From the NCBI RefSeq assembly GCF_018881655.1, contig NZ_JACVPX010000001.1:62001-126000 (forward strand): a stretch of 64,000 nucleotides of DNA, given 5' to 3'. This DNA comes from Polynucleobacter sp. Tro8-14-1. GTDB taxonomy: Bacteria > Pseudomonadota > Gammaproteobacteria > Burkholderiales > Burkholderiaceae. The notes under the pieces were generated by a model that worked only from the letters and a program-made list of their open reading frames with translations, was not told the origin of the DNA and made no database searches. This document shows, piece by piece, positions 52,941 through 54,510 of this stretch (the first letter of the stretch is position 1; each line of letters opens with the position of its first letter). Position numbers and translations under genes: made by a program.

Positions 52941-53247
52941 GCAGAGTCAATTGGGCAATCGCCGCCTCTTTATTGAGGGGGAGGAAAGTCCGGACTCCAT
53001 AGGGAAGGGTGATGGCTAACGGCCATCCACGGCGACGTGAGGAATAGGGCCACAGAGACGAGCGTATTTAGTTACGGTGAAACGCGGTAACCTCCACCTG
53101 GAGCAATCCCAAGTAAGCAGGCGATGAGGCGTCCCGCTGAGTCTGCGGGTAGGGAGCTTGAGCCGTCAGGTAACTGCCGGCCTAGAGGAATGATTGCCCC
53201 TAGATGCAAATCTAGGCGACAGAATCCGGCTTATCGATTGACTCTGC
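52941..53247 (+). ncRNA. rnpB: RNase P RNA (type A)
   Basis: Catalytic RNA that trims tRNA 5' ends. The ends pair as P1 (GCAGAGTCAAT with ATTGACTCTGC). Hallmarks in order are GAGGGGGAGGAAAGTCCGGACTCC near the start (CR-I region), ACAGAGACGAGC, GGTGAAACGCGGTAACCTCCACCTGGAGCAATCCC, GGGTAGGGAGCTTGAGCC, and the 3' ACAGAATCCGGCTTAT conserved block. Length (about 307 nt) is on the short side. The 3' end stops 3 bases from the convergent osmC-type gene, with no obvious terminator in between. Confidence 0.97.
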
Positions 53248-53249
53248 AC

Positions 53250-53672
53250 TTATTCCGCAATGATTTCGACGCTGTAGGTCAGTTCTGCAGTTTTAGCCAA
53301 CATAGTCGTAGCCGAGCAATATTTTTCATGTGAGAGCTTTACGGCGCGATCTACCTTTGCCTGATCTAGGTCTTTTCCTTTGACCGTAAAGTGCAAATTA
53401 ATCTTAGTAAAGACTTTCGGGTCTTCTGAAGCCCTCTCAGCCTGGAGGGCCACTTCACAGCCGGTAATGGCTTGGCGGGCCCTCTGTAGGATTAAAACCA
53501 CATCAAATGCAGAGCATCCGCCTGCACCCACTAAAAGCAGCTCCATTGGCCTTGGAGCGAGGTTTTTGCCACCAGCTTCAGGGGCACCATCCATGTTTAC
53601 GAGGTGGCCACTGCCAGTTTCTGCAGAAAAAGCCATCCCGCCATTACCCAACCAACTTACTCGACATTCCAT
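53250..53672 (-). CDS. OsmC family protein
   Basis: A 140-residue OsmC/YhfA-fold protein, a family of thiol-dependent peroxidases and stress proteins. Visible are GAGGCSAFDVVLIL with the first active-site cysteine (C53) and HEKYCSATTML with the second (C119). These two cysteines support a peroxidase-type activity, though YhfA-like members have no defined substrate. Upstream is a 409-base gap holding an FNR-type site that could also act on this gene. Confidence 0.9.
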   Translation of the reverse strand: MECRVSWLGNGGMAFSAETGSGHLVNMDGAPEAGGKNLAPRPMELLLVGAGGCSAFDVVLILQRARQAITGCEVALQAERASEDPKVFTKINLHFTVKGKDLDQAKVDRAVKLSHEKYCSATTMLAKTAELTYSVEIIAE

Positions 53673-53741
53673 TATTAGTGACCCCTAACTTACTAAATTA
53701 ATCAATATTATCAATAGTTTACCTATTTTATGGGAAATCAA

Positions 53742-53757
53742 GTTGCTGCACAGCAAC
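53742..53757. repeat. short inverted repeat upstream of FNR-type site
   Basis: GTTGCTG-CA-CAGCAAC is a 7-bp dyad, 70 bases upstream of the osmC-type start and 10 bases before the FNR-like box. No U run follows on the + strand, so it is not a + strand terminator. It could be an operator for either flanking promoter. Confidence 0.4.
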
Positions 53758-53766
53758 ATAAAAAAA

Positions 53767-53780
53767 TTGATTTTGATCAA
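53767..53780. promoter_or_regulatory. FNR/CRP-type binding site (TTGAT-N4-ATCAA)
   Basis: TTGAT-TTTG-ATCAA is an exact match to the FNR/Anr consensus dyad. Its centre (53773.5) lies 103 bases upstream of the osmC-type ATG and about 47 bases upstream of the inferred + strand start near 53821. That distance is between the usual class II (-41.5) and class I (-61.5) spacings. The site is preceded by six A. Which FNR/CRP-family protein binds is not known from this window. Confidence 0.8.
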
Positions 53781-53785
53781 TATTC

Positions 53786-53814
53786 TTGCGTCGCACCATG
53801 CATATGGATACAAT
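53786..53814 (+). promoter_or_regulatory. putative sigma-70 promoter of the intergenic transcript
   Basis: TTGCGT (53786-53791) and TACAAT (53809-53814, 5 of 6 to consensus) are separated by 17 bases on the + strand, just downstream of the FNR-like box. The weak -35 box is what would be expected of an activator-dependent promoter. A start near 53821 is predicted. Confidence 0.55.
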
Positions 53815-53820
53815 AACCAT

Positions 53821-53922
53821 ATTGGTAGTCAGTCTTGTATAAGACTGCGACTTACCTCCCAGTGTCTCCTCCACCCAAACATAGGTGGATTCCAACCCAG
53901 GACTCGTTCCTGGGTTTTTTTT
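53821..53922 (+). ncRNA. candidate FNR-controlled small RNA (about 100 nt)
   Basis: No open reading frame of note lies here, but the sequence has the parts of a bacterial small RNA. A first hairpin (53824-53856) has the 7-bp core CAGTCTT-GTAT-AAGACTG extended by GGTA/TACC. A C/U-rich single-stranded stretch (53857-53872) ends in CTCCTCC, complementary to Shine-Dalgarno sequences. A second hairpin TCCACC/GGTGGA (53870-53889) follows, and then a strong terminator with eight T. Promoter and FNR-type site are upstream. The alternative is a terminated leader of rplM-rpsI. No RNA family is recognised by eye. Confidence 0.6.
53894..53922 (+). terminator. Rho-independent terminator upstream of rplM
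   Basis: Stem AACCCAGGA/TCCTGGGTT with a CTCGT loop and a run of eight T. No + strand protein gene ends before it: the nearest upstream + strand gene is rnpB, 650 bases away. It therefore implies a transcript that starts within the 53673-53890 interval. Confidence 0.9.
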
Positions 53923-53946
53923 AGGTTACAATTCAAGGCTTTACTG

Positions 53947-53972
53947 AATTACCGAGCCGGTCAGCGGTAATT
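53947..53972 (+). promoter_or_regulatory. hairpin in the rplM upstream leader
   Basis: AATTACCG-N10-CGGTAATT is a perfect 8-bp inverted repeat 110 bases upstream of the rplM start, in the gap between the terminator at 53922 and the ATG. In E. coli the rplM leader binds L13 for autoregulation; a similar role here is conjecture. The remaining leader (53973-54081) contains GCAG/CTGC and TTGCA/TGCAA short pairs but nothing else I recognise. Confidence 0.4.
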
Positions 53973-54081
53973 TGTTGTACCAAGTAAATTGCAGAATCTG
54001 CGAGCTTGCAAACATAAGCAGGGCCAAGGTGGATGTAATTTGGTTGGGGTAATTTTTTTGACTATAACAATTTTAGAAATC

Positions 54082-54510
54082 ATGAAAACTTTTTCTGCAA
54101 AATCCCATGAGGTAGTGCATGAATGGTTCGTGATTGACGCTACGGACAAAGTCCTCGGTCGTGTCGCCAGTGAAGTGGCACTCCGTCTACGCGGCAAGCA
54201 CAAGCCTGAATACACCCCACACGTTGATACTGGCGACTTTATCGTTGTCATCAATTCATCTAAGCTCCGTGTCACAGGCACAAAAGGCTTGAACAAAATT
54301 TATTACCGTCACAGCGGATACCCAGGTGGTATTAGCTCGACCAACTTCGACAAGATGCAAGACCGTTTCCCAGGTCGCGCTTTGGAGAAGGCTGTGAAGG
54401 GTATGTTGCCAAAAGGCCCACTAGGCTATGCCATGATCAAGAAATTGAAAGTTTATGGCGACGCTAATCATCCGCACACGGCTCAACAGCCTAAAGCGTT
54501 AGAGATTTAA
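54082..54510 (+). CDS. rplM: 50S ribosomal protein L13
   Basis: Early-assembly large-subunit protein of 142 residues. Family signatures are [19 protein letters not shown] near the N-terminus, [30 protein letters not shown] and the C-terminal [19 protein letters not shown] with HPHTAQQP. The ATG at 54082 gives the family start (MKTFSAK); the in-frame stretch upstream to 53989 is leader. rpsI follows 9 bases downstream, the universal bacterial pair. Confidence 0.98.

Follow-up and report, generated by a model that had tools for sequence, protein, structure and literature searches.

Positions 53821-53923 of the window, by which we mean the whole stretch of 64,000 nucleotides analysed here, encode on the + strand a real small RNA of the already known family RF02278. 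We propose, with a probability of roughly 0.75, that this sRNA is controlled by PhaR through two operators and released by PHB, that its CU-rich loops act on ribosome-binding sites, and that an FNR-type site provides an extra input in part of the genus. The putative PhaR/PhbF-type site, which had not been named in the original prediction of an FNR-activated small RNA, is the best-conserved non-basal promoter site across lineages, and the predicted PhaR input is better supported than the FNR input. The features of the region are as follows (window coordinates):

53250..53672, - strand: OsmC-family gene, divergent neighbour (PF02566, 72.6 bits; NF008009, 155.1 bits, above cut-off)
53744..53756, + strand: upstream PhaR/PhbF-type site, reading TGCTGCACAGCAA, which matches TG[N]TGC[N]3GCAA exactly and has its core centred on 53751
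53767..53780, no strand assigned: FNR-type box TTGATTTTGATCAA, exact TTGAT-N4-ATCAA form
53786..53814, + strand: promoter TTGCGT-N17-TACAAT (-35 at 53786-53791, -10 at 53809-53814)
53786..53798, - strand: PhaR/PhbF-type site, which matches TG[N]TGC[N]3GCAA exactly, has its core centred on 53791 and overlaps the -35
53821..53923, + strand: predicted small RNA of about 103 nt, its start placed 7 nt past the -10
53824..53856, + strand: 5' hairpin, belonging to this part of the genus
53855..53872, + strand: CU-rich stretch CCTCCC...CTCCTCC, anti-Shine-Dalgarno-like
53863..53923, + strand: Rfam RF02278 match (model 1-64 of 64, 52.8 bits, gathering 50)
53870..53889, + strand: middle hairpin in the fold of 53821-53923
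53894..53922, + strand: intrinsic terminator (9-bp stem 53894-53916, eight T 53915-53922)
53927..53932, + strand: TACAAT just past the terminator, perhaps the -10 of rplM's own promoter
54082..54510, + strand: rplM (ribosomal protein L13; TIGR01066, 194.7 bits)

The segment 53863-53923 is a member of RF02278 by its covariance model, which it matches over the full length and above the gathering score, and the fold of 53821-53923 reaches -35.3 kcal/mol (z -4.6), a value equalled by none of 200 shuffles. Kimelman et al. 2012 is said to be the founding paper of this family. RF02278 bears the name 'Betaproteobacteria toxic small RNA' and covers double-hairpin RNAs of Burkholderia (PMC5688073, PMC4603805). 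The original prediction had described a small RNA with two hairpins and an eight-T terminator behind the promoter TTGCGT-N17-TACAAT, and each of these elements is confirmed; it had further stated that no + strand protein gene ends at this terminator and that the RNA shows no identity to FnrS or AniS, in agreement with our results, as no credible gene of this kind occurs among the listed open reading frames and the four Rfam matches at E<=1 include neither sRNA. The Rfam search supported the reading as an sRNA and revealed the known family, which had been missed. A match to anti-hemB (RF02837) was rejected, as it scores 33.8 bits, below the cut-off of 49.5, and overlaps the RF02278 match. The alphaR8/MmgR family is absent among the window's Rfam matches at E<=1, and the only alphaproteobacterial family matched for the window was ar14 (17.7 bits, cut-off 58.8). 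A plasmid search with 53690-54000 returned no match.

Conservation of the RNA was followed in an alignment of 52 same-genus loci, selected for the presence of TTGA-N6-TCAA. CTCCTCC is conserved at 1.00. The original prediction had suggested a test for covarying stems; in the 5' hairpin, two-sided changes were few, such as those of pair 53826-53854 (CG in 6 of the 52 loci). Covariation as proof of this hairpin was rejected, since its positions are mostly constant or changed on one side, and the inner pairs 53831-53846 and 53832-53845 are disrupted in 15/52 and 16/52 loci, respectively. In the basal promoter, TA[C/G]AAT is near-invariant across the same alignment, including the key bases of the -10. 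The -10 TACAAT agrees with the consensus in 5/6 positions; the -35 TTGCGT is weak, sharing 3/6 positions with TTGACA, which is why the promoter is missing from a generic scan.

The weak -35 coincides with a candidate operator. In Herbaspirillum, TG[N]TGC[N]3GCAA is the consensus of phb promoters and was footprinted at that of phbF (PMC3206438). On the + strand, 53786-53798 reads TTGCGTCGCACCA, the reverse complement of this consensus. The centres of this site and of the one at 53744-53756 are 40 bp apart, with the FNR box between the two sites. The genome carries phaR (TIGR01848) and five Phasin_2 matches, four of them above cut-off, and TGC-N3-GCA sites precede phaR and three of the five phasin-family genes. 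As many as 59 exact sites occur genome-wide, and shuffles give 1.74 per 64 kb; this total is close to the chance number, without excess, so a single site means little by itself, and the total was rejected as support. Two exact sites less than 100 bp apart were found at only three places in the genome, namely two phasin promoters and the RNA promoter, against an expected 0.15, in a test devised once the pair in the window had been noticed. Two exact sites within 220 nt occur in 14 of the 76 listed primary same-genus loci, so the upstream site is kept in a minority. Phasin mRNAs were rejected as targets of the RNA, their duplexes taking unremarkable ranks (13-40 of 42); that of phaR ranks 20.

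The conservation of the site was assessed in two samples. The first consists of 150 listed RF02278 records, 84 from the same genus (76 primary and 8 second or weak copies) and 66 others. In 58 of the 84 same-genus copies, an exact site lies no more than 130 nt upstream, as compared with 0/84 downstream and 0.1 in shuffles. Across the 52-locus alignment, conservation is 0.98-1.00 for TTGC and GCA, and 0.54, 0.92 and 0.73 for the middle bases. In 11 of the 76 primary same-genus loci, no site within one mismatch was found in 220 nt, and 10 of these 11 genomes have phaR. In phaR-bearing members of other families in the listed order sample, the exact form is found upstream in 9/50 and downstream in 5/50, and is therefore non-discriminating by itself; with up to one mismatch the counts are 27/50 and 11/50. 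In listed members of other families lacking phaR, exact sites were found upstream in 0/16 and sites with up to one mismatch in 2/16.

The second, independent sample of named genomes contains at least 120 RF02278 loci, 115 of them with full flanks, and here the core TGCN3GCA is present upstream in 77/115 and downstream in 13/115. A blind search for 3+3 words in 114 named loci, from which the probable chance match L271 had been dropped, placed GCACAA first by P value (61 vs 1) and TGC-N3-GCA second (77 vs 13 of 114), the latter having the highest count among the 25 words shown. Both the core and the -10 were found in 61 of the 76 listed same-genus and 65 of the 115 named loci; the distance from the end of the core to the -10 is 13-14 nt in 56/61 and 41/65 of these, respectively. 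In Dechloromonas agitata, two exact TTGTGC-N3-GCACAA sites were found, one on the RNA between osmC and rplM and one on a phasin gene (PF09361); in Azonexus hydrophilus, the sole exact site found is on the RF02278 RNA. Two related Bordetella loci read TTGCATCGCACAA and TTGCAACGCACAA. No good site at the -35 was found in Burkholderia L258, L278, L325, L364 and L367 or in Cupriavidus L280 and L337. As a separate observation, an ATTTCGYARTGCARAT-like element before the -35 replaces a clear PhaR-type palindrome in Burkholderia L258, L278, L325 and L367, and such an element also occurs in Cupriavidus L266 and L280.

The original prediction had placed FNR at 53767-53780 as the factor switching the RNA on at low oxygen, in the manner of FnrS and AniS; TGC-N3-GCA would then be no more than an unusual -35 region. 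The box itself was read correctly and is the single exact one in the window, with a chance expectation of 0.20 and at least one in 19 of 100 shuffles, and by itself it is thus just mildly unusual. Conservation adds to its weight: TTGA-N6-TCAA is kept in 52 of the 76 listed primary same-genus loci, reads TTGATTTTGGTCAA in 42 of these 52 and usually begins 19 nt ahead of the -35 site; the letters TTGA and TCAA are constant in the alignment by construction, as the 52 loci were picked for them. A search for a gene of the FNR/CRP family, suggested with the original prediction, did reveal an FNR-type gene in the genome (NF008365, 236.9 bits, cut-off 228), with a cysteine cluster and an E..SR recognition helix. 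The box and a strong FNR match co-occur (44/58 vs 8/18, Fisher 0.019); the absence of FNR was set by hand in 20 genomes, some of them incomplete, as a best PF13545 E above 1e-14. Genome-wide, 25 exact boxes were found as compared with 2 for the reversed pattern, a poor control, since reversed patterns, here and for PhbF-type sites, have altered dinucleotide use.

Against this stand several findings. The box centre at 53773.5 lies at about -47 from the predicted start and not at the standard -41.5, a weakness which the original prediction had correctly recognised; in E. coli, ndh is repressed from a site near -50. The box is also kept in five complete or nearly complete genomes that lack a strong FNR match: other Crp/Fnr-type matches occur in G014 and G047, only weak ones in G018 and G030, and in G016 no PF13545 match was found at E<=0.001. 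Outside the genus, the box was found, at other distances, in just 1/66 listed order records and 1/115 named loci (of at least 120), and is thus nearly absent from other lineages. The GCA half-site, moreover, is not known as a sigma-70 element. FNR as the main switch is for these reasons a tentative reading that we consider rather unlikely. FNR control as such is plausible, and FNR or a related protein is likely to be a lineage-specific extra input, of either sign, added to the proposed control by PhaR. Two further observations concern such regulators in this genome. A second Crp/Fnr-family gene (L092, G000 C20:53821), adjoining genes that look transposase-like by eye, has an E..SR-like recognition helix and could likewise recognise the box. 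At a further place, likely under FNR control, two exact FNR-type boxes (L098 and L099, G000 C6:162404 and 162476) stand 72 bp apart between genes that by eye resemble hemN and ompW.

The distribution of the site was also compared with the presence of phaR, in statistics that ignore shared descent. Counted per genome in the order sample, the S. meliloti motif YGCRNYGCR was found in 19/25 genomes with phaR and 0/11 without (P 2e-5), the one-mismatch pattern in 19/25 and 2/11 (P 0.002), and the core in 18/25 and 3/11 (P 0.025). In the named sample, phaR was searched in the genomes of 89 of the at least 120 loci (86 with full flanks; L300-L329 and L366 were left out), and the S. meliloti motif was present in 60/75 loci with phaR and 4/11 without (P 0.005), and the core in 50/75 and 3/11 (P 0.019). 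Differences in this sample were not significant for the one-mismatch pattern (39/75 vs 3/11, P 0.20) and the exact pattern (14/75 vs 2/11, P 1.0); L271 is counted here among the 11 loci without phaR, as it is among the 115. The protein bound to TGC-N3-GCA cannot be named from sequence alone, and phaR was not found for the core-bearing L355, L359 and L365, all metagenome-assembled. It is nevertheless improbable that the site belongs to another regulator with PhaR-like specificity, given that phaR and phasin genes of this genome, as well as a phasin gene in Dechloromonas, are preceded by sites of the same type. A different near-palindrome, of the type ATTAGANAATNCTAAT, is often shared around the -10 by RF02278 promoters of genomes in which phaR was not found (L255, L262, L284, L296, L353, L359, G104, G118, G123, G124, G132, G134, G136 and G139) and is also found in one copy of the phaR-bearing G121; it is perhaps the site of another regulator.

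RF02278 RNAs are widespread in the relatives, with a match at E<=0.001 in 117/150 and above the cut-off in 80/150, and none was found in 14 control genomes. The + strand neighbours of the sRNA are rplM and rpsI. By a translated-motif test, rplM follows in 75 of the 76 listed primary same-genus loci, the exception (G074) having just 164 nt of downstream sequence; in the named loci, rplM lies downstream in 56/102 and osmC upstream in 51/102. In Dechloromonas agitata and Azonexus hydrophilus, the gene order is a COQ7-like gene, osmC, the RNA, rplM and rpsI, with COQ7 and OsmC confirmed by Pfam in D. agitata alone and the other genes assigned from translations. The main alternative of the original prediction, in which the transcript would be the 5' end of the rplM mRNA and the terminator a regulated attenuator, agrees with this linkage in the genus and is hardly credible, because RF02278 copies are also located elsewhere (with eight in genome G145 and nine in G097), published accounts treat the homologues as small RNAs in their own right (PMC5688073, PMC11722255), and TACAA, TATAA or TAGAA follows within 16 nt of the RNA in 76/76 listed primary same-genus loci, like the TACAAT past the terminator here.

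Several side observations were made on the surroundings and on further copies. An RNase P RNA (RF00010, 240.9 bits) at 52943-53249 of the window ends one base short of the convergent osmC. Weak RF02278-like copies of about 30 bits occur at other sites in six same-genus genomes (L160-L163, L166, L167), four of which (G006, G027, G029 and G042) also have a primary copy. In G112, a weak RF02278-like RNA (L153, about 1374-1460; 33.1 bits, below cut-off) with a terminator resembling that of the window lies directly 3' of a phasin gene (955-1356) that is divergent to phaR.

The control by PhaR proposed here would operate as follows. A basal sigma-70-type promoter would have its -35 covered by one PhaR/PhbF-type operator, the other lying 40 bp upstream. 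As long as PHB stores are low, PhaR, by analogy with its behaviour elsewhere, would occupy the promoter and block synthesis of the RNA; when PHB granules form, they would take up PhaR, as in other species, and the RNA would be made. PhaR is described as a repressor taken up by PHB granules in R. eutropha (PMC11332829), and such uptake has been hypothesised for Herbaspirillum (PMC3206438). The RNA would probably act with Hfq, perhaps after trimming of its 5' end near 53863, and its CU-rich single strands, judging from the homologues in Burkholderia and Bordetella, would cover the ribosome-binding sites of transport and catabolic genes, reducing uptake under carbon surplus. In part of the genus, oxygen or redox state may feed in through an FNR/DNR-type protein between the operators, acting as activator, anti-repressor or co-repressor. 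A link between PhaR and FixK2, a regulator of the CRP/FNR type, exists in Bradyrhizobium (PMC10888616), and joint control by carbon store and oxygen would thus have a parallel.

More broadly, we lean towards the view that in betaproteobacteria the sensing of PHB granules has RF02278 as its RNA arm, that PhaR is the repressor of S17, and that the FNR-type box joins oxygen and carbon-store signals in part of the genus. If this is true, PhaR holds anti-Shine-Dalgarno RNAs off until stored polymer frees them, and nutrient uptake is damped. The operator would tie a widespread, toxic and growth-slowing family (117/150 relatives, at least 120 named loci) to carbon storage. It would also offer a testable answer for the control of the B. 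cenocepacia RNAs and for the postulated repressor of S17. No link between PhaR and RF02278 was found in the titles and opening parts of abstracts of the open-access papers listed.

Among the known systems, FnrS of enterics and AniS of Neisseria share with this locus an FNR-type box ahead of an sRNA promoter; they differ in the position of the box, and neither is among the Rfam matches at E<=1. A closer likeness exists with ncS03, ncS05, ncS27 and ncS62 of Burkholderia cenocepacia (PMC5688073, PMC4603805), as the match to the family model is full-length and the two hairpins, CU-rich stretches and terminator are shared. For the Burkholderia RNAs, it is predicted that transport and catabolic genes have their ribosome-binding sites covered by the CU-rich stretches, and growth slows when ncS27 is over-expressed (PMC5688073); growth inhibition upon over-expression in E. 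coli has been reported for the family (PMC5688073, PMC4603805). In glucose medium, ncS03, ncS05 and ncS27 rise 8.0-, 6.9- and 4.3-fold, respectively, and levels also rise in biofilms (PMC5688073). The regulator of their accumulation is called unknown in that paper, which mentions an upstream motif common to three Burkholderia copies (its Fig. S3), apparently without naming a regulator. Herbaspirillum has four such RNAs (Hsnc059/063/086/107; PMC7011215). The RNA in the window differs from those of Burkholderia and Herbaspirillum in its longer predicted 5' end with a hairpin of its own and in its upstream sites.

Another relative is S17 of Bordetella, an Hfq-dependent sRNA whose 190 nt form, S17L, is trimmed by RNase E and which is tied to the Bvg mode (PMC11722255). 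Its promoter, with the -35 TTGCAT, is activator-free in vitro, and repression in vivo has been postulated (PMC11722255). The likeness extends to this -35, to the conserved 5' end of the short form, and to the neighbourhood, S17 lying beside coq7 in Bordetella and the order coq7-osmC-RNA-rplM being found in Dechloromonas. The 190 nt S17L, the RNase E trimming and the Bvg tie set S17 apart, and PMC11722255 apparently makes no link to PhaR. Repression of RF02278 RNAs by PhaR until PHB builds up is the most economical reading, and it fits both the rise of such RNAs in glucose medium and the repressor postulated for S17.

The nearest parallel in regulation is MmgR/alphaR8 of Sinorhizobium, with SisA-D of Caulobacter. 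PhaR of S. meliloti binds the mmgR promoter in EMSA (PMC12542648; PMC8401924), and mmgR is one of the alphaR8 RNAs, which have an anti-Shine-Dalgarno 10-mer in common (PMC12559287). A PhaR-type site in the promoter and an anti-Shine-Dalgarno 10-mer are points of likeness, and the known system has a role in PHB; MmgR differs in being another RNA family by name and in its additional control by NtrC. If the proposed circuit is true, RF02278 would be the betaproteobacterial counterpart of the alphaproteobacterial PhaR-MmgR system, and alpha- and betaproteobacteria would share one circuit logic while using different RNA families for it.
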